Below, piece by piece: positions 6,114 through 42,017 of a stretch of DNA of 64,000 bases. Source of the DNA: Echinarachnius parma (taxonomy: Eukaryota; Echinodermata; Echinoidea; Clypeasteroida; Echinarachniidae); NCBI GenBank assembly GCA_037951105.1, contig JBAMJV010008115.1, forward strand, positions 1 through 64,000, written 5' to 3'. Positions within the stretch are counted from its first letter, which is position 1; the number at the start of each line of letters is the position of its first letter. The notes beneath the pieces were generated by a model. It was not told the DNA's origin, searched no databases, and saw only the letters and a program-made list of their open reading frames with translations. The position numbers and the translations under genes are program-made.

Positions 6114-6188
6114 AGGAAAATAACTTGGATATAAGATCCCATGAATCAAAATATGGCAACGTATGAAAAACAAGACTAACCAACTACT

Positions 6189-7644: not shown

Positions 7645-7870
7645 CTGTAAATGGAGCCAGAGCTTCTTCTGTGGTCCCCTCTGGGAAGGCCTCCTGTGCT
7701 TCTTCCCACGTCTCTGTATGCACAGCCTTCGTAAATGCCTCCTGCATAACTTTCTTCTTTTTTAGATCTTGTGCAGCTGCCCCCATTGCTCTTATATTGC
7801 CATCCGATCCACACTTGAGGAGCAGCCCAAACTTGTCTTCTTCCTGCAATCCCTGCAGCTTCAGAAATAC
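7645..7870 (-). CDS. Exon 4 of the uncharacterised minus-strand gene
   Basis: 226-bp exon on the minus strand. The acceptor is CATGAATAG|GTA at 7871/7870 and the donor is TTTACAG|GTAAAT at 7645/7644. Phase 0 at entry fits exon 3; it leaves one base of a split codon at its end, so the gene continues below 7645 or beyond the window. The product starts VFLKLQGLQEEDKFGLLLKC, contains GSDGNIRAMGAAAQDLKKKK and ends EEAQEAFPEGTTEEALAPFT. It is Ala/Glu/Lys-rich and probably helical. I could not find the next exon or a stop-bearing exon in 1-7644. Codons are more GC-rich than the surrounding AT-rich intron sequence, which supports real coding sequence. Confidence 0.66.
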
Positions 7871-8349
7871 CTATTCATGAAGAAATTAAAATGTTAATAT
7901 GACAAAGTGATTATGCTGCAACATAACAATAATTATTACACATACAGGCCAGTTTTTCGATTCAATAAATCATGTATTTTGTTTCCGTCTTGGGTTTGTC
8001 AGTCATAGCGCTCAATATTGTTATGATATTACCATCCTAACGTGTATCTTGCAGCTCTACAAATGTGTATTTGACGATCAGACGATATTACTACTCCATG
8101 GAGCTGATATTCAATCCAGCGCGGAAGTGCGCAAATTCATACGCGCGTTTATTAATGACGTATGAATGGCTTTGGGCGTGTCTATTGTGACGTATGAATA
8201 CATTTACGCACTTGTGCTATAGTACGTGCAAGTAGCCCTTCATGTGTTGAAAATGTTTAATCCGTAATTTGAGATTCAATACATTGGTCTTCTTCACTGA
8301 ACAAGACGGAGTAAGATGTATGATTTTGTTCATTTATGGTTTGCTCTGG

Positions 8350-9420
8350 TTAGGATAGTGTTACGAATTTTCATGATCGTATTTGCAAAGTATTGGACAA
8401 TTATAACTGAGCTGTAGTAGATGAATGTATAGATGAATGTATAAATGTATTTCGTCATTGATTTATGTTTAGTCAGACCTCCACTCTCTTTTCCCCTTTC
8501 TCTCTCTCTTCCCTTTGACCCCCATTCCTCAAGTTACCACTTGTTGCCATTCGCAATCCCTTGAATTTACACACTGGACTATGTTTTGAATTCCTATAAC
8601 TTCTTTGCTATCATCCTTCCATCCCTCGCCCTCCCGCGTGGGTCGTATCAATTTCGCCTTATCGTCTTGTTTTGGAATCAGAACAAGTGGCCCTCTCTTT
8701 CCTACCAAATACCACGTTCCCCTTCTAAAATTCCTTGCTATAAGTAGAACATGTTGACATTCTCTTGCTCATACTCTGAATTCCAGAAATTCCCCCATTC
8801 CATAACTTTGGTGTTTTATCTTATTCCTTGTTTTAGAAAGAATGCTATGTTTTATATGATGTCGAAATATGTGCAAAACTATGCAATGTTTCTTATGATC
8901 TCGAGATATTTGAAATGCCTTACATATTTGTTGAAGACTTCAATACTTTTCTGCTTTCTTGTAAAGTGTATAAATACTGATGTTTTCCGAAATGCTAGGG
9001 AGTGCAGAGTTAGGATTTGTACCACGGAGTCTAGAGTTCGAAGTTGTACCAGAATTGTACCAGGGGGTTCGGAGTTGTTATAGTGACTGCTGTGTCAGTG
9101 TGAATCGGAGTTAGCTAGCTATGGGTTAGGTCGGAGTTTAGTTAGTGTTTGAGTTAGTTATGATCGAGTCAGCTTTGGTCTAGTTTTATTTATGCTAGTT
9201 CTGATCTGCGTTCTCCGCAGGCCACAGTTATTAATCACGTATACATGTCAACTCTTATGTGGTATCTACTTGTGAATAAACTCAAGCAACTATATTTCAG
9301 AACTTGAATCCTCACTTATTATTACCTCCTTGCGTTTGATTATCTGAGGCACGCTACCGTGATTGATTGCGAACCTGTGTGATTGCTAAGTGGAATGAAC
9401 AGATTAATTTAAAGACACAC
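8350..9420. other. Non-coding stretch within intron 3
   Basis: AT-rich with CT-rich tracts. No exon with both a plausible acceptor and donor was found on the minus strand, and the 110-residue plus-strand frame has no recognisable features. At 9170-9240 several GAGTTAG/TTAGTT repeats occur. Confidence 0.35.
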
Positions 9421-9425
9421 AATAC

Positions 9426-9493
9426 CTCATCATTATCTTCATCATCTTCATCCCAAACATTTGTCATCACCCGACATTTGTAACAATATGATG
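9426..9493 (-). CDS. Possible small acidic exon (weak)
   Basis: The minus strand reads ...CCATAG|CA TCA... through TGTTACAAATGTCGG to an acidic run WDEDDEDNDE, then a donor GAG|GTATTG. It would encode SYCYKCRVMTNVWDEDDEDN and end in phase 0, which fits exon 4 downstream. Its entry phase does not fit exon 3, so another exon would be needed between. The presumed acceptor lies at the edge of the AATATTGACTGG foldback at about 9.5 kb, which may have disrupted or created it. It could equally be a chance open GAT-rich stretch. Confidence 0.22.
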
Positions 9494-9514
9494 CTATGGA
9501 TAGTATATAATAAT

Positions 9515-9797
9515 CATAATATTGACTGGCTTGTTCTTTCGTGATATATCAGAAATATTGCATTCGCTAGGATTGCACTCGTCTTCGACTCGTACAATAT
9601 GATCCAATATTTCTGATATACCACTCAAGGCCAGTCAATATTATAATTATTTATATAATGACTGGCCTACAGTGGTATATCAGAAATATTTCATGAGCTA
9701 GGATCATATTGCATCAGTTGAAGACGGGTGCAATAAAATCCTAGCGAATGCAATATTACTGATACATCACGACAGAACAATGCAGTCAACATAATAT
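9515..9797. mobile_element. Two adjacent AATATTGACTGGC foldbacks (copies 2 and 3)
   Basis: First copy about 9515-9642, second about 9648-9795. Each has AATATTGACTGGC / GCCAGTCAATATT-type ends and inner GAAATATTGCATTCGCTAGGAT arms. They stand head to tail next to the 3' end of the Penelope-like element. Confidence 0.55.
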
Positions 9798-9892
9798 CTA
9801 AAGGTAAACGCAAACAAGAACATAACTCGTAAATAACATCGCTAGTGATAATCGCTTGTCTCGCAATGTATGGCCAACAAGGAATCTAAAAG

Positions 9893-9937
9893 AACACGAC
9901 GTTTCGTGCGCCGCTGCAACACTTCGTCAGGTGATAC
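9893..9937 (-). ncRNA. Hammerhead ribozyme-like motif of a Penelope-like element
   Basis: Read on the minus strand the order is CAC, CTGACGA (9930-9924), stem II GTGTTGC-AGCG-GCGCAC with one bulged T (about 9922-9906), GAAAC (9905-9901), cleavage triplet GTC (9900-9898), then GTG pairing with the first CAC. These are the conserved hammerhead core elements (CUGANGA, GAAA, NUH) in the right order. Helix III would be only the AC/GU pairing, the minimal form described for Penelope-like element hammerheads, which are thought to work as dimers. Position in the 3' part of a Penelope-like remnant fits. Activity cannot be judged here. Confidence 0.6.
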
Positions 9938-10054
9938 AAATCTGCTGTAAACAAGGGAATATTTACCCTGCGATAGGCGCAACGCGCTATCCCGCTTGAG
10001 CGAGAACGCTCCTAATTGGTCAATAACGGACAAGGCCTATTGGCCGACGCACAC

Positions 10055-10320
10055 GGGTGCTCAACCAATCAGTGGGCCGCTGGCTCGGCTCGCCTGTTGG
10101 GCGGAAACAATGACGTGCTCAACCAATCAGCGGGCCGCTGGCCTGTTGGGTGGAACAATGGCGTGTCTGTGCCGGCTGGTCGGGGAGCGTCATGGTGGTT
10201 TATCGTACGCATCAACAAATCAACGGGCGGCTGGCTCGGCTGGCCCGCTAGTTGGAATCAACCGGTGTGGGCCGGCTGGTAGGGAAGTGTCATGGCGACG
10301 TATCGTACGCATCGAAAAAT
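10055..10320. repeat. Local tandem duplications in the Penelope 3' region
   Basis: CAACCAATCAG(T/C)GGGCCGCTGGC occurs twice (about 10063 and 10120) and a diverged third time near 10215. A longer unit with GTGCCGGCTGGT..GGGAGCGTCATGG and TATCGTACGCATC is repeated at about 10165-10215 and 10265-10312. The segment is markedly more GC-rich than its surroundings. Confidence 0.5.
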
Positions 10321-10930
10321 GGGGAATTTCGATCCCGTTGTCTCTGTTGAAATTATTGGGATTGAGGCGGATATTGATAGCTTCCTTTACCCTACGTGTG
10401 TACCAATGCCGTTCTTGGGAAAGGCACTGAACCCCGTCCCAGTCTGGCTGATGCTGGTTCTCCCAAGCATGTTCGGCTACGGCTAAGCTGTCAGTTCGGC
10501 GGAGCCTGACGTCCCTCTTATGCTCAGTGATTATTTCTGATATCGGTCGGGCAGTTTTACCGAGGTAGGATCTGTCACATCCTTGGCAAAGGATGTTGTA
10601 CACAATGCCATCCCGTCTGTGTTGAGAAATTGGACCCTTGGGGCGAGTTAGTTGCTGACGTAGAGTGGTATCTGGTCTGAAAACCGTTCGGATCCCATGG
10701 CTCTCTAGGCGGCGCCTGAGTTGTTGGGAGACACCATAAATGTACGGCAAGACGGTGAAAGTCTTTTCTTCCTTCTGATCCTTGGGCTCTGACGCTCTCT
10801 TCTTGGTTTTGTGTATAAAACGGCGTGTGTAACCGTTGAGACTCGAGGCACTGCGGACACGCGTCCGCTCTTTGCATGGCTGTTGTGGGCTTGTCACAAT
10901 GCGTGACGCTCTGTCAAATAGACATTTCAC
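10220..10930 (-). pseudogene. Penelope-like element, GIY-YIG endonuclease part
   Basis: Minus-strand frame of 236 codons. The GIY-YIG domain is visible at about residues 128-165: GIVYNILCQGC, then SYLGKTARP, then EHKRD. Upstream is a basic linker (HKTKKRASEPKDQKEEKTF) and the FTVLPYIYGVSQQLRRRL segment seen in Penelope-like proteins. The Arg normally found between the YIG strand and EH (as in ...RL.EH) is replaced by Ile, so the nuclease is probably inactive. The frame is not continuous with the RT part (10969-11292); a frameshift lies at about 10930-10970. The C-terminal end overlaps a local tandem duplication (GTACGCATC...). Confidence 0.82.
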
Positions 10931-10968
10931 CAGACCTCGATCTCTTCACCAATATGGGATGGTGAGAG

Positions 10969-11318
10969 TCAAACGTTATATACTGGTCTGTGTGGGTAGG
11001 CTTCCTGTAGACTGAGGTGGAGAGTATGTGGTTGTCGTCTGTGAACTATCGTATCTAAGAATGCTATTTTCCCTTCGCACTCCATCTCTGATGTGAACTG
11101 GATGGATGGTTGGCGGCTGTTCATGTGTTTGAGCAGATTGTGTGTTTCTGAGCCGGAGACTATGATGAAAGTATCATCTTCGTATCTATTCCAAACCCGA
11201 GGAAGGCAAGAGAGGGGACATGTGTCTAACGCTTCTTCCTCGAAACTCTCCATGTATAGGTTGGCCACGACAGTCGAGACCGGGCTGCCCATGGCTGGCC
11301 CTTCCGTCTGTATAGTAT
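10969..11318 (-). pseudogene. Penelope-like element, reverse transcriptase fragment
   Basis: The minus strand encodes PAMGSPVSTVVANLYMESFE, then WNRYEDDTFII and AFLDTIVHRR. These are RT fingers/palm motifs; the catalytic Y-x-D-D is YEDD and is intact. In-frame sequence continues upstream of the Met to about 11318, so the Met is internal rather than a start. The element is cut off at about 11320, where a different repeat (ACACTCTAAATTACA) begins, so the N-terminal RT half is missing. After PVYNV the frame stops; homologous sequence resumes in another frame (VKCLFDRASRIV). Dead copy. Confidence 0.85.
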
Positions 11319-11426
11319 AAACTACACTCTAAATTACAGGGATTTAAAATCTAAATCGTAGCTAGGATTAAAACATATATAAATAGTGGTGCAGCTAAGT
11401 GTAGAATACCAGGAGATTCGTTCAGT

Positions 11427-12655
11427 TAGTCATACAAGCACCCAAATTGGCATGTACATTACCTTTGGTTCACTTTTTCAGAAAAAAATCTTAGCCACGC
11501 AAAATTCCAACATGGCGGCCATTTTCCAAGATGACCGCCAAAAAGCTACTTTTTGTCATAAACAGATACATAATTAGTCGATTTCAATAATATTGGTGTC
11601 GATTCCAATTATGTATGGCATGCAGAAACCAAACGTGGTATATTTAGTCCCTATCCACTTACGTAGCTACTGTAAAAATCCAACATGGCGGCCATTTCCC
11701 AAGATGGCCGCCAAAAAGCTACTTTTTGTCTTAAAAAATAATTAATTTGTCGGTTTCAATGATCTAGGAGTCGATACTAATTATGTATAGTAAGCATAAA
11801 CCAATTATGCATTATTCGGTCCCTATCCAGTGGCGTAACTACTGTGAAATTCCAAGAAATTTTCCAAGATGGCCACCAAAAAGCTCCCTTTTGTCATTAA
11901 AAGAGAAATAATCAGCCAATTTCTATGATCTTGAAGTCAATTCCAATTACATATGGTATGCAGAAACAAAATGTGCTATATTTAGTCCTTATCCAGCTGG
12001 GTACCTACAGTGTAAATCCAACATAGCGGTCATTTTCGAAGATGGCCGCAAAAAAGCTACTTTTTGTCATTAAAAGAGAAATAGTCAGTACATTTCAATG
12101 ATCTTGTAGTCAATTCCAATTACATATGGTATGCAGAAACAAAATGTGCTATATTTAGTCCCTATCCATTTGCATAGCTTCTTACTATACAAATCCAATA
12201 TGGTGGCTATTTTTCAAGATAGCCGCCAAAAAGCTACTTTTTCATAAAAAGATTATTAAATTGTTCATTTAAATGATCTGGAAGTCGATTATAATTATGC
12301 ATAGTATGCATAAACCAAATGTGCTAAATCTAGTCCCTATCCACTGGCCAAGCTACGTTTAGCAACATTTTCATCTTGACTACGTTGGTTAATATCAGAG
12401 TGATTCTTACAGTCGATTTAAATTGTGTATAGTATTCAGAAACCAAATTTGTGTATAGTATTCAGAAACCAAATTTGTGTATAGTATTCAGAAACCAAAT
12501 TTGCTACATCTAGACCTATCCAATTGCGTACCTACTGGACAATCTAGCATGGCGGCTATTTCCAATATGGCCACCAAATTGTACTTTTTTGTCATTAAAA
12601 TACAAACTAATAGTTGGTCAATTTCAATGGTTTGGGAGTCGACTAAACTCGTATA
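11427..12655. repeat. Tandem repeat, about 175-bp unit with ATGGCGGC motifs
   Basis: Six to seven diverged copies of a unit with CCAACATGGCGGCCATTTT, CCAAGATGGCCGCCAAAAAG, CTACTTTTTGTCATTAAAA, ATGATCT.GAGTCGATTCC and a TTAGTCCCTATCCA segment. Core motifs fall near 11505, 11683, 11865, 12020, 12196 and 12545. The first copy, including its unique outer flank (CAAGCACCCAAATTGGCATG), appears inverted at 13605-13776, so the whole block is bracketed by an inverted repeat. Confidence 0.75.
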
Positions 12656-12872
12656 TTCTTAAGAATTGCAACTCTTGAGAATTGCAAGATATGTGTCCAA
12701 ACTATGCCGTACTCTCGAGAGTTGCAAATCTTAATAATTAAAACCGGAAGATAATTATCAATGATAACTATCTTCATACTAAAGGGACATTTGAAAAAAA
12801 TCTAACCCTATTTTATTCTTCTCTTACCATAAGCTAAACAACACGGCAGAAGAGAAACGAGGAAGCTCCAAG

Positions 12873-13020
12873 TATTTTTCGTGGAGTTAGACACTTTACA
12901 GGCATGCCTTTAACTAAATAAAATGGTTTACCCCTATACTCTTTAAAAGAATTTTTCGTGGAGTTAGACACTTTACAGGCATGCCTTTAACTAAATAAAA
13001 TGGTTTACCCCTATACTCTT
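12873..13020. repeat. Near-perfect 76-bp tandem duplication
   Basis: The segment ATTTTTCGTGGAGTTAGACA...GTTTACCCCTATACTCTT occurs twice head to tail with essentially no differences, which points to a recent duplication. The preceding part (ACTAAAGGGACATTTG...) matches a repeat at about 55500-55540. Confidence 0.7.
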
Positions 13021-13213
13021 AAAAGAATTGGGCAACAAATGCCCAACTTTTAACCAACACTGGGCAACATACTGTCCACACAACTATTGGTTAAAATCTG
13101 CCCAACTGATGTTCACTTGAAGGCTCAATTGGGTAATAATTGCCCAGAATTATGAATCTTTTTTACCAACCAACAATTACCCAACTAAATCTACCCAACA
13201 TTTTAAGAGCGTA
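13014..13213. mobile_element. Short GGGTAA/GGGCAA foldback (200 bp) with TA ends
   Basis: Ends TACTCTTAAAAGAATTGGGC and CCCAACATTTTAAGAGCGTA. Internal TTGGGCAA / TTGCCCAA / TTACCCAA words. The same terminus and internal words mark the much longer element at 28688-30166. The flanking TA suggests a Tc1/mariner-type target, an inference from the ends only. Confidence 0.65.
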
Positions 13214-13604
13214 TATGGCCATTGTTTCATGCACCTCCATGAAACAAAAAAGAATTAAAATATCCCTTATTGAGAATGCACAGGTATATACTTCAGGAAA
13301 AATCTGGAGACTTCCATCCATTGGACACCAAGTATATTGTCCAGGCTGATGTTGCTGAAAACTGAAATTCCTCACAATAGCTGCGTATATATAGTGCTCT
13401 AACTGGCATAGAATAGGGGTGAAAAAAGTGAAAATGTGTTCTGTCAGCGTATTAGATATATAACAGCAATAAGCAAGCGAATGATCGTGAAAGAGATTGT
13501 CTTCTATATCAGTTCATTGCAAGTTACAAGCGATTATAACCTCTAGGAAGTTTCTGGCACGAGAATTAACCGCCCCTTGTTTCAAGCAAAAGCAAAAAAT
13601 CAAC

Positions 13605-13776
13605 ACCAAGATTATTGAAATCGACCAATTATTTTTATTTTTATGACAAAAAGTAGCTTTTTGGCGGCCATCTTGGAAAATGGCCGCCATGTTAGAATTT
13701 TGCGTGGCCAAGATTTGTTTCTGAAATAGTGAACCAAAGGTAATGTACATGCCAATTTGGGTGCTTGTATGACTAT
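13605..13776. repeat. Inverted copy of the first 11.4-kb repeat unit
   Basis: Reverse complement of 11427-11605 with few changes, including the outer flank (CATGCCAATTTGGGTGCTTG) and the AAAAAGTAGCTTTTTGGCGG / ATGGCCGCCATGTT core. The 100- and 64-residue minus-strand frames here are translations of this repeat. Confidence 0.75.
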
Positions 13777-14284
13777 TTGAACGATTGTTACAGCTATCTG
13801 CCCCACTAAAATGCACTTAGATTATTTGTAAATCTATGAAGACTTAAAAATACGCGCAAAAGCAATTGTTAATCGATGTGTGATGTGTGATTTTCAATCC
13901 ATCAAAGGATTTAAAAATAACGCCAGGTTATCGGAGATTTGACGAACAGTGATATTTCACCCGTGACCTACTGCGGTATTCTGAAGCTAAGTTTTCTTAG
14001 TTGTATACTCATGAATATTCATAACTAGGATTACGGTTTTGGTTAGAGTTAAGGATATGATTACAATGAGACCACTCTTTCCATCATCGATTTACGTAGC
14101 GTAGTGGTCCCCACAGTAAACTAAAAACTGAAAAATTGTGGCCTGCATCACTGATTATGAATAATTAATTAGGATGCCATGAACTCGCCTGGGGCCTAAT
14201 AAGATTAACATAAAACAACTCCAGCTATGAACTCTGTAAAACCACTTGAGTTGGAAATCGTATGTTCAGTCAGTGGAGTAATGA

Positions 14285-14430
14285 GCCAAATCTTTGGGGG
14301 GGGGGAGGGGCTAAACCAAATCCGCATCACCACCGGATATTGCGAAGGAGCGTAGCGACTGAGTGGGGGGAGGGTGTGGGAGGGGGGTGTCCCCCCTCCC
14401 ACGGTAGGGAGCTTTTGCATTTTGGGACTT
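14285..14430. repeat. Repeat shared with 45765-45875
   Basis: GCGAAGGAGCGTAGCGACTGAGTGGGGGGAGGG... then TGTCCCCCCTCCCAC.GTAGGGAGCTTTTG(C/T)ATTTTGGGA matches the interior of the hAT-like element at 45.3-46.4 kb. This is probably an isolated piece of that family. Confidence 0.55.
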
Positions 14431-14909
14431 GAAACTGTGCAATCTGTGCATATCTAGAAAGGAAATTCTGACTTGACGACATGTACTACTAATGTGCGTT
14501 AGTGCGTCATCGTCATGATTCTACCAACCAGAAAAGGTTATGATTGTTTCATGAAGAAAAACAAAAATGCACCCACTAAATAATATTCGCAGTGACATCT
14601 TCAGTTCAAACAGTGCATCAAAAACATTATTTTATGACAAATCAAAATGAACATTGTATTCCAGACTTATACAAGACCGATTCCCGAGGGAGCGAAACAA
14701 TATCCGAGAGAGGGAAGGATGATTGGAAGGTGTGATGATAGTGCACGGTAAAGGTACTTTTGCAATGTTTTACTTGAAATTATGCAATCTGATGTATACC
14801 TGGGAAGAAAATTTTACTTGACATGAAGTAAAAGTTTTCTTGTCTGAAGAAATACTTTTTTTTTCAATGACTGATAACGAATTAGATAAAAGCCATGATT
14901 GAAATTTAT

Positions 14910-14952
14910 TTGGGGGGGGGGGGGGGGAAGCGCCCCCCCCCCCCCCCCCCAC
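14910..14952. repeat. G17/C18 hairpin
   Basis: A run of about 17 G, the spacer AAGCG, then a run of about 18 C: a near-perfect homopolymer hairpin. Similar facing G and C runs occur at 25500-25545 and 55338-55382. Confidence 0.7.
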
Positions 14953-15469
14953 CAGTACGTACGCCAGTGTGTTCAGTATAACCGGTGAGCGGAGAAAGAA
15001 TCTCTGCTAGGTACTTTGAGAGGTTGTAGGCAAAGGAGTCGATGCATGACACTATGGGTCGCAGTATACTGTGGGTTTGTGTATCTTGGGTAACCCGTAT
15101 ATCCTAGGAGGTTGCTTCTGTGTAATATATCAAATATAGGAAAAGTTAGAGCTTTCAAATCATTTATTTGTGTGGAATGTTTTTCAAAAATCATGATTTG
15201 AATTATCAAAGTAGTGCATTTCGCCAATAATGTCTTCTTTTACGAATCTGCTCTTCCGAAAAGTGATCGATCTTGAAGATAGGTTACACTCTAAATTACA
15301 AGGATTTAAAATTAAATCTATTAGATTTACTTTTAAATCTTTCTTCGGCTGTGGTTAGGGACCAGGCGATCAAGATTTAAAATAAATGTTGTGTTGGATT
15401 TAAAAATATAAATCCAGATAGATTAAAATTGAAGCCCTTTTGGATTTGTTTTTTGTTAATCTTATTAGG

Positions 15470-15735
15470 CCACAGGGGGGCATTCTGAAAAGATAAGACA
15501 TGTCCTAAGTCATGGATTTTGTTCTAAGTTACGAGTCGTTACTATATTTGTATTCTGAAAACAGGACTTAGGACATGTCCTAACTTAGGACATCCTAAAG
15601 TTACGACACGTATGCAAATGAGCTAAAAAGTTAAGACACGTATGCAAATGAGCTAAAAAGTTACGACTGAGCTAATTTGTATTCTGAAAGCCACAACTCA
15701 GGATACAACTTAAGTCTGCCTCTGAGGTGTCCTAA
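15470..15735. mobile_element. ATTCTGAAA foldback-type repeat with 32-bp tandem duplication
   Basis: Contains CATTCTGAAAAGATAAGACA, TTTGTATTCTGAAAACAGGA and TTTGTATTCTGAAAGCC around inverted TAAGTCCTGT/ACTTAGGACATGTCCTAA words. The ends resemble the GGTGTATTCTGAAA family at 6.19 kb. GACACGTATGCAAATGAGCT with its flank is duplicated in tandem at about 15600-15662. Confidence 0.5.
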
Positions 15736-16199
15736 CTCGGTCACTCGCACGATTTACGATAGTAATTATGACATTAAAGTGCAATGAGCGTCCGAAAGTG
15801 TAACCAAAAAAGAACATACATTTATTGCGAGTAGTTGCGCGTGATAACAAAGATTGAGCGCGTTGACTGAAAAAGTACGCTTGAAAGTTATCTTTCATGC
15901 GCTCTCGGCCTCTTCGATCTTTTCCACTCTACCAAAAGACTGCAAAATGTTCATACATGTTAATGTTATTGATAGGCCTTCACGGAAACAAAACAAAATT
16001 AATTGTTTACTGTACAAGAGAAAGACATTATTTGGTTTACATTTGTAAATTACATTAATTACATTCATTATTTAAAAGTGATATAGCTGTAAAATAATTG
16101 GTTAGTGTAAGTACTGTGTCGGCCAATTACGACAGCCAAATAAGTTGATGAGATGCATCAATAGTGTAGTTTGAGTGTCTCCAACAAGTATTATTTGAT

Positions 16200-16601
16200 C
16201 AGGCGCGGATCTAGCTTTTTGCTAAGAGGGGGGGTTGGACCAATGTCGATGCGGAGCATCGTTCACGAGCCGCGTAGCGGCGAGGCGATTTATTTGGCTA
16301 TTTTGAACCCCCGTAAGTGATGTCTTTTTGCTATAATGGGGGGTTTGACCCAATGACGATGCGGAGCATCGTCCATGAGCCGCGAAGCGGTGATTTTTGT
16401 TGCTATTTTGAACCCCCGTAAGTGATGTTTTCCACATCACATTTTCACTTGGCAGCCCAAGGGGGGGGGGGGGGGGGGGGGGGGTTAAACCCATGATGGC
16501 GTTTTTCTATGCACATCACATTTTCACTTGGCAGCCCAAGGGGGGGGGGGGTTTAAACCCCCTAACCTCCCCCCCCCCCTTCCCCCGTAGATCCGCGCCT
16601 G
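16200..16601. mobile_element. Non-autonomous element with CAGGCGCGGATCTA ends
   Basis: Terminal inverted repeat CAGGCGCGGATCTA (left) and TAGATCCGCGCCTG (right). The interior is two to three tandem units: GACGATGCGGAGCATCGT, GAGCCGCG(T/A)AGCGG, ATTTTGAACCCCCGTAAGTG and CACATCACATTTTCACTTGG followed by a G run of up to 24. Ends of this kind are known from hAT-related MITEs. I could not find a clean 8-bp target duplication (left flank TATTTGAT, right flank TTGATTTG). Confidence 0.68.
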
Positions 16602-16929
16602 TTGATTTGTTCAGTGTCATTCAACTGTGACGGTGTATATTATTTCAATTTCGAACGCTGGATATCATTACGTTATAGTGTATTTGTTATTATTGGTAAA
16701 CTGAACAATTCAGACATTATGTTAATTTTAATAAAATAAAACAAAATCAATGGGGCAATCAACCCTATGAGTACGAGAGGAAATACATAAATAAACAAAT
16801 AAATATATAATAAATCCAATTGTAGGCCTACCAAGTATACTGATACTGCCAGGGAGGTAGGCACAAAGTTAAAGCAAGGGCGCGCATGAATTATGCATTT
16901 TTATTCCACCGGAAAACTGGCTTGTATGT

Positions 16930-17330: not shown

Positions 17331-17373
17331 TTGAATATTCAGCTCCATGGAGGGGTAATATTCGACTGTTATC

Positions 17374-18140
17374 TCTTAGTGGGCCATTTTGCTGTAATCT
17401 GATTGGTCAATTTGTCTTTGAGACAAACCCGTATTTACCTCATTTACTTGGTCAAAATGATCAAACGGGTAATATGAGCCCGTATTACCTGTTTACGTCT
17501 TGTTGTTGTTATTGTTTTAATGTAAATTATCGTGTTTTTCATCGTTGTGCACATGCGCAGTGGCGATTTCAACCACTGAAGATGAGCCCGTATTACGTGA
17601 ATGAAAGCTATCGCGATCGATATCGATATCGCGATAGCTAGGCTAGATATCGCTCACAGCAGCAAAATGGCTGCAAATTCGCGGAGATTCGAACACCACT
17701 CCAGGGATGAAATATCCGAGAAGGAAACATCTTCAACGCCGAAAAATACGATTAGAGCGAACTTGAAAGCGGCCAGGGCCTTTCGGGCTTTTTTGGAAGA
17801 AAGCAACGATTATTCAGATGATGTTTGCTTCGAAAGTTTTTCCGCTGATAAACTCAATGGAGCTCTCGAAGGATTCTGGTTGGGCGCTCGGAAGCAGAAG
17901 AGTGACGGGGACGCTCCGGCGGGTAGCATCCGTGCGGGTACCGGCGGCATGCAACGGTAAGCAAGCTTTTTATAAAGCCTCAACGTTGGAAAATCTCCGT
18001 CATAGCTTGGAACAGATATCTGAAATCTCCACCGAATGAGAAGGGATTTGATATTATCAAAGACAGGGAATTTTCTGCATCAAATGAATCTTACAAATCT
18101 GATTGATCAATTTGTCTTAGTGGGCCATTTTGCTGTAATC
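17374..18140. repeat. Direct repeats flanking the Crypton-like fragment
   Basis: CTTAGTGGGCCATTTTGCTG with TAATC lies at 17374-17398 and again at about 18116-18140. CTGATTGGTCAATTTGTCTT (17398) is matched by CTGATTGATCAATTTGTCTT (about 18095). The two words come in opposite order at the two sides, as expected if a longer tandem repeat brackets the fragment. Confidence 0.55.
17667..18104 (+). pseudogene. Crypton/KIAA1958-like tyrosine recombinase, N-terminal part, frameshifted
   Basis: From ATG 17667 (context GCAAAATGG) the first frame gives MAANSRRFEHHSRDEISEKE, then NTIRANLKAARAFRAFLEES and LNGALEGFWLGARKQ, up to a stop at 17958. Similarity resumes in the next frame with GKQAFYKASTLENLRHSL (to about 18005) and in the third frame with NRYLKSPPNEKGFDIIKDRE, FSASNESYKSD, then a stop at 18102. 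This order, a core-binding helix pair followed by 'YKxSTLxxxRxxLxRYL' and 'DIIKDxEFxxSN', is that of the N-terminal domain shared by Cryptons and the KIAA1958/ZMYM/QRICH1 family. The catalytic recombinase part is absent. An alternative is that 17667-17956 is a true exon, since AACG|GTAAGC is a good donor, but the homology continuing past it in shifted frames argues for decay. Confidence 0.6.
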
Positions 18141-18419: not shown

Positions 18420-18552
18420 CACACCCTGCTTGTTCTCACGCAATACGGGATATATCTACGTTCTGGTTCCATATTCCATTCGGCCTCCGGCCTCATGGAA
18501 TATGGAACCAGAACGTAGATATATCCCGTATTGCGTGAACAAGCAGGGTGTA
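18420..18552. repeat. Near-perfect hairpin, arms about 60 bp
   Basis: CACCCTGCTTGTTC.CACGCA...GGTTCCATATTCCAT and its exact complement enclose the loop TCGGCCTCCGGCCTC. High arm identity indicates a young element or ongoing correction of the arms. The frames over it are arm translations. Confidence 0.72.
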
Positions 18553-19327: not shown

Positions 19328-19485
19328 AACAAATATACCAAGCTTTTAGTTCTTCGGAGGGACTGGCATAGTTACTATTTTTGTCCTCGGGGCTTCGCCC
19401 CTCGGAAAAAATAGTTCTATGCCAGTCCCTCCTCAGATATATAATTCCACTATACTTTCTCACAGCTTGGTATATTTGTATAATA
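19328..19485. repeat. Hairpin with CTTCGCC loop
   Basis: Arms AAATATACCAAGC...GGAGGGACTGGCATAG and CTATGCCAGTCCCTCC...GCTTGGTATATTT enclose TCCTCGGGGCTTCGCCCCTCGG. Confidence 0.65.
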
Positions 19486-19549
19486 TTATATGACCTATAA
19501 AGATACTGGTGTGCGATTGGTCAAAATGCTGTCACGTGACCATCGCTAC

Positions 19550-20105
19550 AAGGATGAGAAGCGTTATATTGAACAACCAGTCAATATAACGCCGTTATAT
19601 TGACTGGTATGACGCAATTTACGTCACAATGGGTGTGTGAAGATGAACAATTTAGCATCCTGGCACGCGCAGTGTTGTCAAGCTTTCTACGGAGATTGCG
19701 CGATCCGAAAGTAAATTTCAAAGGAAGGTCGAATAAAGAAGCATTTTGCGCAGCATTTCGATAACACGTCTGTTCTACTGGAAGGATTTCGATTTAATCT
19801 AATGATTTTCCCTTGTCCATAATATTATTTCCAACACCAAATTTATATTTAACTTGATTTGTATCTATATAGGTCATCATAATATAACAGATATTGACTT
19901 TTTCCTTCGGGAACCATATAACATTTCATTTCCCTTGGGGAGTTATATTTTTGTCTCGGAATACTATATTTTTCCTCAGCGCTACGCGCTTCGGAAAAAT
20001 ATAATGTCCCTCTACACAAATATAACTTCCCTCGAGGATCTCAAATGTTATATTGCCCCTCAAGACAGTCAATATCTGTATAATATTGACTCGCAAATAC
20101 ACATT
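19550..20105. repeat. GTTATATTGACTGG-related inverted repeats and hairpin
   Basis: 19550-19610 contains ACCAGTCAATATAAC and GTTATATTGACTGG facing each other. 19880-20090 is a hairpin with AATATAACAGATATTGACT ... AGTCAATATCTGTATAATAT arms and the loop CCTCAGCGCTACGCGCTTCGG. Confidence 0.5.
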
Positions 20106-20124
20106 TTAGTAAGTAAATAATTAC

Positions 20125-20265
20125 CGTTGGTGAAGGTGATGGGACAAACTATCACTTCGGAGGCGATCTGGATGTAGCTATCTTTCCGAAGCGAAGCTGA
20201 GGAAAGATAGCGTATACATTCAGATTGCCGAGGAATTGATAGTTTGCCATCGCCTGAAACCAAAA
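20125..20265. repeat. Hairpin with CCGAAGCGAAGC loop
   Basis: Arms GAAGGTGATGG.ACAAACTATCA...GATAGCTATCTTTCC-like and their complement (ending TGATAGTTTGCCATCGCC) around TTCCGAAGCGAAGCTGAGGAA. Same design as the three hairpins above. Confidence 0.5.
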
Positions 20266-20489
20266 TGTGATTTTTTGCTTTATATTCCACATCAATTATT
20301 TTGATCACAAACGATCCATAACTAACACAAAGGATTAAAAAGTTTGAAATATTGAGCAATTATTCGAGTGTTTTATTTTAATTTCGTCAATCCTGCACAT
20401 GAACAAGATTTGTGATTAAAAGTCAAAGACGCTTATACCACTGTCTATTAAGCGTAGCCACGCGTAAACGTTGCGCACCATCGCACTAG

Positions 20490-20895
20490 CTGCGTTCACA
20501 CGGTAAAAGCCAATCTTGTGGGTATCTTGTGGTTTGCGCTCGTTTGAACACGCAAAACTCGTGGTTATCTTATGTTTTCCAAACCACAAGATTGCGCGCA
20601 CTGCAAACTACACGCAATCTCGTGGTTATCTTGTGGTTTCCAAACCACAAGATAACCACAAGATACTTGTAAGATGTTTCGCAGAATGAGCGCGCGACTG
20701 CGCGCGCGGTCTATTTTTTTTTACCGTCTGAACACAATCAGCTTCGAGACTCGTGGTTTGGGTTGACCTCATGACCGAGATATGCTTCCGGTGTGAAGAC
20801 AAGTCAAGTGAGCGCGCGTGACCTCGAATGAGAAAGGCGCGCACACTACTTCCGGTTTTAATTCTTAAGAATTGCAACTCTCGAGAATTGGCATC
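20490..20895. repeat. TCTTGTGGTT-rich foldback repeat, copy 2
   Basis: Matches 2100-2610 in order: TCGTGGTTATCTTGTGG words, inverted AACCACAAGATAACCACAAG, GAGCGCGCGACTGCGCGCGC, TTTTTTACCGTCTGAACACA, CATGACCGAGATATGCTTCC and ACTTCCGGTTTTAATTCTTA. The right end is replaced by other sequence after GAGAATTGGC. Confidence 0.55.
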
Positions 20896-21483
20896 GGGCA
20901 CTCACGCGCGCACGGGTACTTGCGCGCGAACAATTGAAGATAGTACACAGTGTAAGGAACTTTTCTTCTCCCATCAATGATGGGCCAAACTATATATTTC
21001 ATCACGTGATGAACTATTTACCTATCGTAGAGCAAGATGTGGGGGGGGGGGGGGGGGGCTGACCACATTTTGGCTGTTATTATAATTATTATTTTGTGTT
21101 CATGTATTTCTTGGTTTTAAAGGGGACCACCAGGCAAAGAACAAGTCATAATTTTACGTTTTGGTACCCTTTTGTGATAACAAATATATACCCAATATTT
21201 TGCAAAGGGTTGTATAATTCATGAACAATGCGTTTTATTACCACTGCTTACGGAACCACTGCTATTTCCTGGTTCCAAACTCGCCAAACATTTACAAGTG
21301 CGCCAATCCTATTGTATTAAGCTGATAGAATCTGCTTAAAATGTGTTGATGAAGAAATTAATGTAACAAAAACAGTGGCAAAATTAATTTCAAATTTCTA
21401 TCAAACAGAACAATTAGAATAAGCAAGTGAACCCCTCCTCCTGCACAATACAACTCTGCACTGACAGTGTAAAATATACTCAC

Positions 21484-21603
21484 AGTCTGTTTCAGGGGCT
21501 TTCCCGTGCTATCCTCATGCTTTTGAAAGGTCCTCACTACCTGCCTGTAGCACCTCGCAGAGAGCTTGGCCACTGAGAAGGTGGGCTCTAAACATCTGAG
21601 TGT
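21484..21603 (-). CDS. Exon 3 of the uncharacterised minus-strand gene
   Basis: 120-bp exon (40 codons, phase 0 at both ends) on the minus strand. The acceptor is CATGCAACAG|ACA at 21604/21603 and the donor is CAGACT|GTGAGT at 21484/21483. The product runs TLRCLEPTFSVAKLSARCYR, then QVVRTFQKHEDSTGKPLKQT. It reads as a mixed basic, probably helical segment with two Cys; I recognise no motif. Exon 2 ends in phase 0 and this exon begins in phase 0, so they join without a shift. A longer overlapping frame runs into the flanking intron and should not be taken as a separate gene. The downstream intron would be 13.6 kb if exon 4 is the next exon; smaller exons could be hidden in it. Confidence 0.64.
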
Positions 21604-22315
21604 CTGTTGCATGGAAGTAAGACATTAAGAAAAGTATAAACAATAACTGATAATTGTCTGGTTCCAGGGTTAGAGAAATATGAAGACCCACATCAACAAT
21701 GTTCAAATGAACACTGTATTACTCAAGCCACATATCATTAATCGGATAAACACTATACTAGTCAATGTTGTTATTTTTGCGCGATATGTATTTCGCCCTA
21801 AGGTCGCAAAAACACATTCACAGGTTTTTAATTGTGCAGCAGATCACGTATGTTTGATTTGCAAGAGCTAAACTCGATCTTAAGACCGTCCCCAAAATTA
21901 TTTAATTGAATAAATGAAAATCAACCATTCTCAGGTTTTAAAGTTTTCAGATGCGCTAAATCCGCAAAAATTAAACCACATCATGTTTAAAGGGATTGTT
22001 GAGTTTTGGTATAAGTGCGCTACACAATATAGTTTTTCTCGTGAGATGATGAGTTCAAATTCGAAAGAGAATACAATTTTAATGGCAGAATAAACTTTAT
22101 TTCATCAAAATCAGTTTAGAAATGGCTAAAATCTCCATAGACATAAGTTGTAATAATTGTGGGGCCCCACAAAAGCCATTTTCAAATAGTTGTTGATTAT
22201 CTCTCTATCTAATAACTGATTTCAACAAAACATCACATTCACAATGTTTTCATTTTATGTAACATAAATGGGTGAAACCGATGATGGTTAAGAGATCACC
22301 CTCTTGAGTTTTAAC

Positions 22316-23990
22316 CATAGGCGTCGATTTCTTCTGGCCATTGGGGCGGGGGGGGGGGGGGGGGTGGGGGAATGATACGTCATTTTGACCATCTTCGGCG
22401 AGGAAGCGGCCGGGATTTTATGACCAGAGGGGGGTGGGGGGGGGGGGGGGGGTTAGGGGGCACTAGCTTTTGGATTTAGCCGTTTAGAAATTTGGAAATT
22501 ATAAAGTGCAAATTGCAAGCACCCTGATGGAACCATGAATAAAATCACGATGGTCACTGGGCATGAGAGTTCCTGAATAAAACTAATTACATTGGGGTCC
22601 AGGCTGGGGCGCAGCTTTTGGCTTTTGCTATACAGAACTATAAAGATGTTGTCCAGATTCAAATAGGAAATACAGTTAGCTATTAAAGGAACAGTCCCTC
22701 TTTTACAAAACGTCTGAACAGTTTCCAGTTGACGGATGGGGATGAATGAGACACACACACAAAAAATCAGATCGAACAGCCCTATAATTTGGATTCTACG
22801 AATGAAAAACGAATGCGTCCCTTCATCAGACTATATATCGGTCAATAAAAGAGTTTAACTGATTTAGCATAATATTACAACTATATTGTATTTATTTTTG
22901 TAAAGGTATTGTGAAGCAGACATGTGTTCATGAATGTCACAGAAAAAAATCTTAAAAATGAAGAATATGTAATTACATGTAGTCAGTTAAGCGAGGTTTG
23001 GTTATTTTGCCCAGTGTGCGGTCAGGCTATTCTTACTTGTGCGCGGGTCACATAGCTAGCGCGGGTCACGGAGGGGTCACGCATAGCGTTGTGGTACTTC
23101 GTGGAATTTGTGTGCGAACTTATTCACTGGCTGAATATACGTATAATGCATAATAAACCGTCTTCCAACAGTTTATTAGTTTTAGGTCTATTACTCCACG
23201 ACAAAGAGATTTCATGCCCTAATTTTTTCAGGCATGGTATTAAATGACATTTTCTTTCATATAAGACAATAACCTCGCAACTTTTGAACTTTGGCTTGCA
23301 AAAGAGGGAATGTCCCTTTAAATAGATGCGAGAGATCCTGAATAAAACTAGTGTTATACGTGTAACGGGGACAGGGTCAAATGACTATAATGCGGGACCA
23401 GGGGGTGCAGCCCCAGGAAGCTTTAGGATTTTTGATATACAGAACTAAAGATGTCCAGATTTAAAAAGGTAAAATAGATAGCTGCCCATTATTATAGTTA
23501 AATATATAGTTAGCTACATTTGAGTAGGCATAGCGAGAGTTCATGAATAAATCTAATATATATGTACAGGAAACCGGGTCAAATGACTATAATGGGGGTC
23601 CAGGGGGCGCAGCCCCTGAAGCTTTTGGCTTTTGCTATACATAACTAAAGATGTCTAGATTTAAATAGGAATATAGTTAGATTAAATAGTTAGATAATAT
23701 AGTAGGCTACATTTGAGCGGGCATAGCGAGAGTTCCTGAATACAACTACTGTATTATACGTGTACAGGGGACCGGGTCAAATTACTATAATGGGGGTCCA
23801 GGGGGTATAGCCGCCGGAAATTATTGGATTTTGGTAGCTTAGCACTCTTCAATATGTGGTTAAAATTGTATCAACTTTCACAAAATGAATGATAGGGAGC
23901 AATGTCCCTTTATTTTAATATATATTTCAATCCGAAATATTGGGGGATAATAACAGGCCATCCCCCATCCCCCCGTGATCGACGCCCATG
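22316..23990. mobile_element. hAT-like non-autonomous element (middle level of nest)
   Basis: Ends CATAGGCGTCGAT (left) and ATCGACGCCCATG (right). It is flanked by GTTTTAAC (22308-22315) and GTTGTAAC (23991-23998), an 8-bp target duplication with one mismatch, as hAT transposases make. Removing it restores ...CTCTTGAGTTTTAAC-GGCTCTT..., the sequence seen uninterrupted at about 46850 (CTCTTGTGTTTTAATGGCTC). The interior carries four copies of the GGGGTCCAGGGGGCGCAGCC unit. No transposase frame. Confidence 0.72.
22683..23321. mobile_element. TTAA foldback (inner level of nest)
   Basis: Left TTAAAGGAACAGTCCCTCTT and right AAGAGGGAATGTCCCTTTAA; TTAA at both boundaries. Removing it joins ...CAGTTAGCTATTAA to ATAGATGCGAGAGATCCTGA, matching the periodic host unit (GTTAGCTA...GAGAGTTCATGAATAAA at 23510-23552). 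The central part is unique AT-rich sequence. Confidence 0.7.
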
Positions 23991-24540
23991 GTTGTAACGG
24001 CTCTTATTTAATAACAAGCTTTTTACTTAGTCATTGGTAATTTTGTATTCTTATCGAGCATGGTGAAGTTATAACTATCAGTTTCTGCAGGTTTTGATTA
24101 CTAAAATTTAGTTCTCTCTTTACCAGAACTCGACTATCTCTTTAAAGTATTTTATAACAATTGTTCACTTGTTATTTAAAGTTATTCTTCAGTATAGTTT
24201 TTGACTGAAAACCTTTTGCGAGTTTCTAACTGAATATATAATCCATAAGAAAGTAGTCTTAATACTGAAGACTTTTATAATGAAAACTTTCTCTCAAAGT
24301 TTTTCCACTTGTGTAGAAACATGATCTCATAAAATATATTTACTGTACTGTGCCAGCCATGGCAAATTTACAATACAATTCCTCACTATTCTAGCTGAAA
24401 TCTTACTTGAATTCGGTGTCCCGCCCAAGAGCGAGAGAGCACTTTCTCCTCATCTCCATAGTCATTTGTGGTGGCTCGTCCTCGATTCTCCCCTACATAA
24501 TAATTTCTCGGCAGATCGCCGTCTGCTCTTCAAAACTCAC

Positions 24541-24652
24541 CGTCCCTAGGTGCAGTTGTTTCGACCTAAAAACGGCGTTCACCCTCGTAGCCTCGATGTC
24601 TGAGAGGTTCACGTAAACCAAAACCCTCCATTTTGTAAACATATTGTGATAT
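24541..24652 (-). CDS. Exon 2 of the uncharacterised minus-strand gene
   Basis: 112-bp exon on the minus strand. The acceptor is ...TTTTTTCAG|A at 24653/24652 and the donor is GGGACG|GTGAGT at 24541/24540, close to consensus. Its first base completes the AG left by exon 1 to give Arg, so the phase matches exactly. It encodes YHNMFTKWRVLVYVNLSDIE followed by ATRVNAVFRSKQLHLGT and ends on a codon boundary. The order 'W-x-V-x-V-Y-V-x-L-S-D-x-E-A' directly after the exon-1 LGG motif strengthens the tentative ParB-like reading (hydrophobic strand, then a helix starting with an acidic residue and EA). The introns on either side are about 3.5 and 2.9 kb. The latter holds the nested transposons of 22-24 kb. 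Confidence 0.66.
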
Positions 24653-25403
24653 CTGAAAAAAGTATGAAAAATAGTCAATTTTAAATATGTGGAAATTACC
24701 CTAAAATCATCCTTTCCAACTGGCAGCCGCAGAGTTGTGGAATACATTACATTCATTTGTTTAATTTGTACATGGATTAGGTTTAACCCTGTATGTCAAA
24801 GTTCTGTCACTTTTAATTCCACCTTGTCTCTTCTTCGCTCCCTGTCTGTTTTCCTATTTCTATATTTTCATTCATTCAATGCGCTTAGAGACTTAAATTT
24901 GTTTTTGTGATTATGCGCTATATCAAAATGGTTATTTATTTATTTATTTTTCCATTCCATAAGAGATAAAACTTTCTAAGAACCACTTATTTCCTGAACA
25001 TACAGAGAGTATTAAAAGTGACTCATTCACTTTACATTTACCGCAATAAGTAATATTTGGGACTTCAATCATATACCAATATCATTGTAAGATTCTTGAG
25101 AATGATATTTTCATAGAAATTTACCTAGTGTCATGACGATCGAAGAGACAATCATTGCCTATTTTTTTTGTTGATCGTTAGCATGAAGTATCCGAATTTG
25201 AATACTACGGACGATTGAGTATCCAAATTTATCCGAATATCATTACGATTATGAATTTCGGTTGAAATTGTACAATCAAACATAATGGATAACTTAAAAA
25301 ACAGGAAACAACCATATTTTCAACGGATCAAACCCTAAAATAAAGAACCGGACAGACCTAACTACATGTGCCAAATCATACTTCATGATATTGATTGATT
25401 ATC

Positions 25404-26732
25404 TTAATGGGAAATTTTCCCCATCATCTATTTACCTTTGATTAATTTCTCTACACATTAACCCTAAAAAGGCCGGGCTATTTTAGGTCTTCAGCAGGCC
25501 GGGGGGGGGGGGGGGCATTATGGCCCCCCCCCCCCCCCCCCCCCCCAAGATCTCGGCCGCGGAGCGGCCGATCGCCGTGAAAATTTGCACGCATGATGAG
25601 TGAAGTGTATAGAATACAATGGTAATTTTAATTTTTTGAAAATGTTATTAATTTGCATATTTATGGTAATTTATGCAAATAAGGTCATAAAATTCATATT
25701 TTTACCCATAAATCATATATTCTTCATAATTAAACATTGGTTTTCACTACATATATTCATTAGAGCATTTAGAATAATTATACGACAAAAGAATTTGGAA
25801 GAGCCAGGTTCTTCCTTATGTTTTCTATTGTTTTTATAATTTCTTATGTATTTCTTTGTTTTTTTAAACTTATGTATTGTATTGTTTTTGTTTATTTTAT
25901 TTCTAACTATAATTCAACTATTTTGAACCCCAAAACAAACATATGAAATGTAAACAAGACCAAATAACCAATGATATACCTCTTTTTACGAAAACTGATA
26001 TTTCCATATGTTTTGTACACAAATCACGAAATTGAGCGATTTTCGGGCTGACATGCATAGACAAAAGGTCACGTGACTTCGTAACGGTAGGTCCGATTTT
26101 CAAAATGTTTGTTTTAAAATATGCGCAAGACCCAAAAGAAAAAAGTCACCAAGCAGCGGCGCGTCATCTTACCGCGTTTTTGAGCAATAAAAACAATCGC
26201 GGAGGGGGGGGGGGGGCATTATGGCCCCCCCGGCCTTATTAGGGTTAAAACATAATTTCATGCAAATAATGTCCAATGTTTGCCCTCTGAACAAAGGAGG
26301 AGCATCATTCAAAGTCAATCGCTATATGGGCTAATCCCATTCATCGCGCTAGCATTGAGGCTGCCATTATATTTTTTGAAACCCGGATTTTGAATTGTTC
26401 GCGCCGAAATGCTACGTCAAACCCGAACAAACAAACTCGGCCTCTTTTTGTTAGCTCTCGCCGCTCGCGGGTTTTGTGCACAAACAAAAGGCAAAACGTG
26501 AGCCAACAAAAAGAGTAGTTCGGGTTTGACGTCACATTTTAGAGCGATCGGAGTTTCATGAACATCAATGGCAGCCTCCTTGGTGTTCGCGATGAATGGG
26601 ATTATCCCGTACAGCGAGTGACTTTGAATGATGCTCATCCCTTGTATTTTGGTCGTATTTGCATGAAATTGTGTTTTAATGTTTAGAGAACATAATCAAA
26701 GGTGATTATATGTTGGGGAAAATGTCCCTTTA
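25404..26732. mobile_element. TTAA foldback split by a second TTAA element
   Basis: Left TTAATGGGAAATTTTCCCCA and right (complement) TTAAAGGGACATTTTCCCCA. The arms continue in register through CACCTTTGATTA and CTCTA.ACATTAA, then break on the left at 25458 and resume at 26245 with AACATAATTTCATGCAAATA, matching the right arm. The centre (26260-26650) is a further inverted pair around GCATCATTCAAAGTCA. Frames over 26341-26638 are arm translations. Confidence 0.72.
25458..26248. mobile_element. TTAACCCTAAWAAGGCCGGG element nested at TTAA
   Basis: Ends TTAACCCTAAAAAGGCCGGG and CCCGGCCTTATTAGGGTTAA. Just inside both ends is a G-run, CATTATGG, C-run block (25500-25545 and about 26202-26231). The target TTAA is duplicated (25458-25461, 26245-26248). 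Interior AT-rich, no transposase. Confidence 0.7.
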
Positions 26733-26875
26733 AGTGATTAACAATTTAATGAGGGTCTAATAAGGAACACTGATCAAAAGCAAATATGGTATAAAAAGCT
26801 TGAAGTGAAGAGCACGGTAGAACCAAATCTTGGTTCCAAGGCGCTTGAAATTAGGGGGGGAAATAATGGGGTGCG

Positions 26876-27020
26876 GTTCGTTATTCCGAAGGTTCGTTAT
26901 TCCGAAGGTTCGTTATTCCGAAGGTTCGTTATTCCGAAGGTTCGCTATTCCTAAAATGAAATCGGGTTCGTTATTCCGAAGGTTCGTTATTCCGAAAATG
27001 AATTAGGGTTCGTTAATCCG
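26876..27020 (+). repeat. 16-bp satellite TTCGTTATTCCGAAGG, forward array
   Basis: About six to eight copies of TTCGTTATTCCGAAGG, two of them separated by AAAATGAAATCGGG- or AAAATGAATTAGGG-like spacers. The word TTCGTTATTCCGAA is itself nearly palindromic (complement TTCGGAATAACGAA). Confidence 0.8.
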
Positions 27021-27033
27021 AAAATGAAATAGG

Positions 27034-27098
<65 letters not shown>

Positions 27099-27250
27099 AC
27101 TGGCGTAGTGGTGGGGGGGGGGGGGGTGTGTCATGGCCCCCCTCCCAAATCAATTTAAATCATGGCTTTTATCTAATTTTATTGGAAAAGAGAGTAAAAA
27201 CTCAGATTGCCAAAGCATCCTAACGGGGGGGGGGGGGGGGGGGGGGGGAG
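27034..27250. repeat. (GT)n microsatellite and G runs
   Basis: (GT)n with minor interruptions at 27034-27098, then G runs at 27112-27127 and 27225-27249. The cysteine/valine-rich 'protein' here is a microsatellite translation. Confidence 0.85.
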
Positions 27251-27644
27251 GGGGGGATGGGGGACACCCCCCTGCCCTTAGTTGCTATTTATGATGAAAT
27301 ACAAACATTCAGACAAATAAAATGTGATTTTGCACTGATATCAAGCAGCAAAATATAACTTTATGACATAATTATAATTATATCAAATTGATTTTGGTTT
27401 TATTTCATGTTTGTTTACATGAGAAAGATATAAATATATATATCTCATTCTTATTGCACTGTTTTACAAAGAAAAATAAAACACAATTTTGACTAGAATT
27501 GTAAAGCCACTCTTTGCCCCCCTCCCCTTCTCCCCCCACCCCCATGCAGCCACGGCAATTAGAGTAAGATTGATCCCCTTTCCCAGACCACACTGCTCAA
27601 ATCAAATCAACTCAATTCTTTTCTACGTCGTATTTATTTAATTT

Positions 27645-27905
27645 TCGGATAACGAACCCTATTTCATTTTAGGACTAACGAACCTTCGGAATAACGAACC
27701 CGATTTTATTTTCGGATCAACGAACCTTCGGCATAACGAACCTTCGGAATAACGAACCCGATTTTATTTTCGGATCAACGAACCTTCGGATAACGAACCT
27801 TCGAAATAACGAACCTTCGGAATAACGAACCTTCGGAATAACGAACCTCGAAATAACGAACCCTTCGGAATAACGAACCTTCGGAATAAATGAACCTTGG
27901 GAATA
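27645..27905 (-). repeat. 16-bp satellite, inverted array
   Basis: About 12-14 copies of CCTTCGGAATAACGAA (complement of the 26.9-kb unit), with CCGATTTTATTTTCGGAT spacers. With 26876-27020 it forms an inverted pair around about 620 bp of unrelated sequence. The Phe/Arg/Ser-rich minus-strand frames are satellite translations. Confidence 0.8.
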
Positions 27906-28155
27906 ACGGACTGTAACCAAATAATGTTCAGTGCGAAATGGGTGGAGCAGATGAACAAAGGTTTTCCATGTGGATTAAACAAAGACATTAAAAAACAGCC
28001 CCGTAACATAATCATGTATATGTTTTAATACCATTAAAGCATCATTAAATTATAACTGATAGGTTTGACCAAAACCGCACTATCCTTTCAATCACACCTT
28101 GCTGGCACGCACATCAATTGTTTACACATATAACAACAATGATAGTATGTATTAC

Positions 28156-28378
28156 CTTTCACTCTCGGTGAGTTCCTTCGCAGCCTCTACCAGGCACGCA
28201 CCACCCAGAACTTCAAACTTCCCGCCTTCCTTTGCCTCTACAGGCAATGCCTGCAGGAGCTTTGTGTCCTTCGACCCATCAAGGAAAAGCTTAGCTTTTT
28301 TTTTGTCTAACCTTGATGGTCGTCGCTGGACTCTGGTACTTGGCTTTAGGTTACCCAGTGCCACTTCATCCTGAATGC
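28156..28378 (-). CDS. Exon 1 (of those visible) of an uncharacterised minus-strand gene; possible ParB-like segment
   Basis: Open frame of 223 bp on the minus strand. It is bounded by a pyrimidine-rich tract ending in AG just above 28378 and by a donor AG|GTAATA at 28156/28155. It starts with two bases that complete a codon and ends with two bases of the next, so at least one further exon lies upstream. The product begins IQDEVALGNLKPSTR, continues through a basic stretch (RVQRRPSRLDKKKAK) and ends GGKFEVLGGACLVEAAKEL...TESE. The segment FEVLGGACLVEAAKEL resembles the 'LGGxHxxxAxxEL' strand-helix of ParB-like proteins, but Cys stands where His or Arg is usual. That resemblance is my inference; the splice boundaries and phase are seen directly. 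Next exon: 24541-24652. Confidence 0.66.

Positions 28379-39970: not shown

Positions 39971-42017
<2,047 letters not shown>

Follow-up and report, generated by a model that had tools for sequence, protein, structure and literature searches.

The window analysed here, 64,000 bases from the echinoid Echinarachnius parma (GenBank assembly GCA_037951105.1, contig JBAMJV010008115.1, positions 1 to 64,000 of the forward strand; C8103:1-64000), carries on its minus strand four recognised exons spanning positions 7645-28378. Sequence comparison suggests that they belong to a damaged copy of a multi-exon, multi-copy animal gene family, of which intact-looking relatives exist, and that exon 1 encodes a remote ParB-like fold; we consider this the probable explanation of the locus. 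A preliminary description, made from the letters of the window alone, had proposed a spliced host gene on this strand, and the conservation of exons and phases in relatives bears this out.

Results

Exons in the window

All open segments of 60-400 bases bounded by AG and GT and with positive splice scores were scanned, and each was scored by codon likelihood plus splice sites, using a model built here with generic animal codon frequencies. On the minus strand exon 4 ranked first (30.9) and exon 1 second (29.3), while a shortened exon 3 (21484-21572, same frame) ranked sixth and exon 2, as delimited in the preliminary description (24541-24652), ranked ninth. Any exon scoring 29 or more was found in 1 of 100 locally dinucleotide-shuffled minus-strand copies of the window. 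None of the four exons overlapped repeats (blastn of the window against itself, E ≤ 1e-8).

Exon 1 (28156-28378), recognised from its counterparts in contigs C7696, C177 and C3852, its exon score and the profile signal described below, encodes the candidate ParB-like core with a VLGG stretch; it is entered with two nucleotides and leaves two over. Exon 2, at its full length in relatives, covers 24407-24652 and contains the shorter exon 2 of the preliminary description. Exon 3 (21484-21603; TLRCLEPTF...LKQT) has phase 0 at both ends, and exon 4 (7645-7870) is entered in phase 0 with one nucleotide over at its end. The two peptides quoted earlier are both encoded on the minus strand, FEVLGGACLVEAAKEL at 28170-28217 and WRVLVYVNLSDIEA at 24589-24630. 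The introns, of about 3.5, 2.8 and 13.6 kb, hold repeats and transposon pieces. All four are internal exons; no convincing candidate for a first or last exon was seen in the window, and the flanking exons of relatives had no match within it. Two other versions of exon 3 were ruled out by the relatives: a start at 21544, where they support 21603, and coding in another frame (DTQMFRAHLL...). Scans of the window for Rfam families and tRNAs gave 0 matches.

Relatives in the same genome

The genome (1.2 Gb, 14,790 contigs) was searched with one protein query. Of the 31 matches at E ≤ 1, the window contig and C7789 had 4 each and the remaining 23 fell on 16 other contigs; among the latter, C1878 matched only at E 0.9, while the relatives on the 15 further contigs had E ≤ 0.0022. 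The copies on C1438, C7698, C11296 and C7696 are mutually 98.5-99.6 % alike, which makes them either a single gene or recent duplicates. In C7696, AG and GT boundaries chain consistently, with phases as in the window, through upstream exons, exons 1 to 4 and two downstream exons. Two further subfamilies, on C177 and C3852, cover exons 1 to 4. Exons 1, 3 (frame and both ends) and 4, with their phases, were thus corroborated with the ends originally given to them, and the full-length exon 3 in its original frame was matched in three subfamilies (ALRSLEPTFQLAS... in C7696, ERKPLEQIFQLAQ... in C177 and NQEAVFQMAKYS... in C3852).

The relatives are under purifying selection. The ratio of nonsynonymous to synonymous substitution rates (dN/dS) was 0.18 over 70 codons for exon 4 of the window against C2883, 0.42 and 0.59 for the same exon against two places on C5315, 0.24 for exon 4 of C7696 against C1419, and 0.18 for exon 1 of the window against C4136; the range of 0.18-0.59 thus covers five comparisons between copies that do not look like alleles, C5315 contributing two of them. 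Allele-like pairs gave 0.34 and 0.31, each from two changes, and two exon pairs had no synonymous change at all. With exons and phases conserved and dN/dS below 1 among copies, the sequences identify a real protein-coding, multi-exon, multi-copy host gene family with intact-looking copies elsewhere in the genome. No description of this family was seen in listings of open-licence papers.

The copy number, and the near identity of the four copies named above, would also be expected if the exons were part of a transposon spreading a ParB-like gene, and two partial gene copies on C2602 (L040, L041), with exons 3 and 4 contiguous, lie beside frames that by eye resemble CACTA-type transposases. We consider this explanation highly improbable: the relatives keep their introns, none of the exons is repeated within the window, and near-identical copies are explicable as haplotypes or recent duplications. 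An unspliced repeated transposon, the case that the preliminary description named as contrary to its gene model, was not seen.

Extent of exon 2 and its lesions

Exon 2 is a real exon, but its 3′ end at 24541, as first described, did not hold in the relatives of three subfamilies, where the exon goes on beyond this point. Same-frame coding-like sequence continues from 24540 to approximately 24407, 134 bases beyond the GTGAGT donor that adjoins 24541, and ends at a GTAAGA donor preceded by CAA; 739 of 127,730 windows of equal length score as well as this stretch with at most one stop. In C1438, C7698, C11296 and C7696, exon 2 is one open frame without stops (query residues 76-157), and the more distant C177 and C3852 likewise carry the stretch inside a single open exon 2.

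In the window the full-length exon is damaged. An in-frame TAG, caused by a substitution, lies at 24493-24495 on the minus strand, and the 3′ end of the exon does not join exon 3 in phase; in C7696 this junction is in phase 0. The stop-free product of about 226 residues proposed earlier therefore exists only if the 134 bases are skipped, and the claim of an uninterrupted frame stands on that condition but fails for the full-length exon. The phases of exons 1, 3 and 4 agree with those of relatives; full-length exon 2 misfits exon 3. The exact chaining of phases is in itself a weak argument because each gap offers many choices of AG and GT.

Contig C7789 matches the window at 94.8-99.7 % over exons 1, 2 and 3 and the introns (three loci, the lowest value spanning repeats) and ends before exon 4; at this identity it is probably the other haplotype of the locus. 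In its exon 2 the frame is also broken, though not where the lesions of the window lie, and near relatives on C2883 and C4136 have stops or frame breaks as well. Because of the TAG and the frame misfit in exon 2, and the different damage in C7789, a pseudogene or null allele is the most likely reading of the window copy, in a subfamily that is decaying in part.

The main competing reading is assembly error: the damage would be only apparent if, in both contigs, stop and frame misfits came from the assembly or from rare alleles and the gene were intact in the living animal. In favour of this, the length differences between the window and C7789 sit in or beside short homopolymers, and the exons otherwise keep codon constraint, as in the comparison of exon 1 with C4136. 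Errors of assembly may account for the length differences of exon 2, which weighs against a damaged copy. An intact gene nevertheless seems unlikely, since a substitution made the stop, the breaks in the two contigs do not coincide, and the relatives on C2883 and C4136 are broken too, as expected for a decaying subfamily.

The preliminary description implied that splicing at GTGAGT gives the working form, a protein that is free of stops and shorter by about 45 codons. This donor outscores 99.8 % of the GTs of the minus strand, its use would join exon 2 in phase 0 to exon 3, and both lesions of the window copy would be skipped. We judge such a working form improbable, however, as the skipped part is coding-like and belongs to exon 2 in three subfamilies, and C7696 has no GT at the position matching this donor.

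ParB-like signal in exon 1

With exons 1 and 2 spliced, the only family listed by PHROGs was phrog_1033, 'ParB-like partition protein' (E 0.059; 0.14 for exon 1 alone and 0.15-0.18 for longer versions). Against a hidden Markov model (HMM) of ParB, built here from eight phage proteins and Spo0J, the frame of exon 1 ranked first among 406 frames of the window (6.9, the next 1.3). Shuffle controls were made for the joined exons, 3000 of each kind, and when each exon was shuffled apart none of the 2730 scored shuffles reached the observed HMM score.

The comparison of profiles gave a clearer signal. A profile of the four subfamilies aligned to the ParB profile with a score of 30.8 and a pair E-value of 1.7e-4 (hhalign), which was reached in 0 of 500 column shuffles (best 21.2); the reversed alignment also scored 21.2. 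Single members scored 28.2 (C3852) and 19.6 (window). Leaving out one member at a time on the family side gave 24.4 to 31.2, with 31.0 when the window member was dropped, and on the ParB side 26.4 to 34.0. By exon, the signal was located in exon 1 (30.6). From this profile signal exon 1 is likely to be a remote ParB-like fold. The ParB-like or sulfiredoxin-like order of domains suggested earlier is likely as a remote resemblance, but all of the measurable signal is in exon 1, and the active-site motifs of both are missing.

Several results weigh against a ParB-like assignment. Exon 2 scored 9.7 and adds no ParB signal, and C177 (11.9) and C7696 (11.2) taken singly show no ParB match, a large share of it coming from C3852 (28.2). 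The leave-one-out score falls to 24.4 without C177 and to 25.7 without C3852, and dropping one or other of two ParB sequences lowers it to 26.4 or 27.0; all of these are still above the controls. The hhalign probability of the pair of profiles is only 50 %. With the window sequence alone, the HMM score of exons 1 and 2 was reached by 4 of 2748 scored composition shuffles, and the single-sequence hhalign score by 3 of 300 shuffles. PHROGs gave no ParB match for the 252-residue version or for the three other subfamilies; Pfam gave none at E ≤ 10 with every piece and member tried, and none was obtained from NCBIfam or PDB. The AlphaFold model of exon 1 alone, calculated without an alignment, was poor (predicted local distance difference test 52, predicted template modelling score 0.16).

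These results would fit a real gene family whose exon 1 lacks a ParB fold, a strand-helix-strand pattern with a GG turn having arisen by chance. We doubt this, though it is a possibility to be taken seriously: it is favoured by the lack of matches in Pfam, NCBIfam and PDB, the silence of exon 2 and the hhalign probability, while the failure of every column shuffle to reach the profile score, the listing of ParB alone by PHROGs, the survival of the signal without the window member and its collinearity over exon 1 argue for a ParB-like fold.

Searches for similar sequences elsewhere added little. Scans of viral contigs with exons 1 and 2 and with exon 4 were negative, a weak result as the same scan with a Spo0J query missed known viral-contig ParBs. 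The tblastn search of phages and the searches of prokaryote genomes gave no useful match, and tblastn against plasmids gave only one, unrelated match (E 0.3); these too are weak negatives.

The GERR-type arginines that follow the GG turn in the ParB alignment are missing in the four subfamilies, which read GGACLVEAA (window), GGPSSSYVLGA (C7696), AGCSLWQALL (C177) and GGASFLLAA (C3852) at this place. The sulfiredoxin motif F(S/G)GCHR, looked for directly in the four subfamily sequences, is also missing. Because these residues are absent, the chemistry of a classical ParB clamp or of sulfiredoxin is unlikely.

Other features of the window

The best exon-like frame of the plus strand (17663-17956; MAANSRRFEHHSRDEI...) lies in the intron between exons 3 and 4, on the opposite strand. 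By eye it recalls the N-terminal part of tyrosine-recombinase-like animal genes of the KIAA1958/Crypton type, and it has no Pfam match. Its score of 27.5 comes close to those of the best minus-strand exons, and the minus-strand gene may not be the only convincing host gene in the window, as it was first said to be. An interspersed repeat at 7924-8200, beside exon 4, has at least 49 further matches in the genome at 82-97 %. The minus strand at 10220-11328 holds part of a reverse transcriptase (RVT_1, E 0.0013, which falls short of the Pfam cut-off) followed by a frame resembling a GIY-YIG nuclease by eye, and the two are probably a Penelope-like element. An open frame of 517 codons at 48115-49668 on the minus strand matches zf-RVT (E 2.2e-7) and is a fragment of long interspersed nuclear element (LINE) type.

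An inverted repeat of about 0.6 kb (31448-32072 and 32244-32858) is 91 % identical with a short spacer. A direct duplication of two kb (39969-42017 and 50359-52384) is 94 % identical, and parts of it are repeated again at 49.8-50.3, 54 and 58.2 kb. C-rich minisatellite arrays with a 15-base unit lie near both ends of the window, on opposite strands (5562-6116 and 58981-60339).

Discussion

Intact members of the family are probably nuclear proteins, as three subfamilies have basic clusters in the open frames that precede exon 1 (KRKRQP in C7696, SKRRRR in C3852 and RRKRQR in C177; splicing of these frames was traced in C7696 only). Binding of DNA, of a nucleotide or of a partner would be the presumed task of the putative ParB-fold module, though not through classical ParB chemistry. 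From the window copy one would expect at most a truncated product with the ParB domain only, or an mRNA removed by decay, except where splicing at the internal GTGAGT donor skipped the damage.

A more far-reaching proposal is that the family, split into four or more divergent subfamilies within this one genome, derives from a captured bacterial or phage protein of ParB-methylase type, and that the ParB active site and methylase motif were remodelled to give a new type of chromosomal DNA-binding protein, some copies of which are decaying while others are conserved. We regard this as speculative and rather unlikely as a whole.

If a conserved multi-copy family with a remote ParB-like domain has been missed by the standard Pfam model, surveys based on Pfam would overlook eukaryotic members, and the family would offer proteins that can be tested for their ligand and role. 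The case also shows that a convenient splice site can conceal a broken exon in a gene model made by eye.

Among known systems, the N-terminal domain of ParB/Spo0J (ParBc, PF02195; phrog_1033) shows a remote resemblance to the family when profiles are compared over exon 1, which takes in the strand leading up to the GG turn as well as the helix after it. Unlike it, the family lacks the GERR-type arginines and a Pfam match, and is encoded by a eukaryotic split gene with extra exons and no known ParA partner. ParB-methylase fusions of phages (e.g. Streptococcus phage Javan128) also have a ParB-like domain first, and a later exon pair of C7696, downstream of exon 4 (DLILDAAGDEG followed by LVARVAVQLCRQVEAFDAE; L048, 2197-2361 and 2852-3018), recalls methylase motif I by eye. 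The motif is without the usual residues, the pair had no Pfam match to a methylase, and it was not found in the window.

Sulfiredoxin, described in a survey of the fold as the commonest eukaryotic form of the ParB-CTPase fold (PMC12704722), shares with the family a eukaryotic setting and, if the profile signal is right, a ParB-type fold. The family differs in being longer, with other exons, and in lacking F(S/G)GCHR, which is required for sulfiredoxin activity according to PMC9925728. PMC3482391, on toxins with a ParB fold, names metazoa for one ParB-like family. PMC9925728 also reports proteins of seven animal species that have a PF02195 domain without the sulfiredoxin motif. Those proteins were detected by the Pfam PF02195 model, which misses the present family, but both would be animal proteins of ParB type that lack the sulfiredoxin motif and, in a comparison made by description only, are possibly of the same kind.

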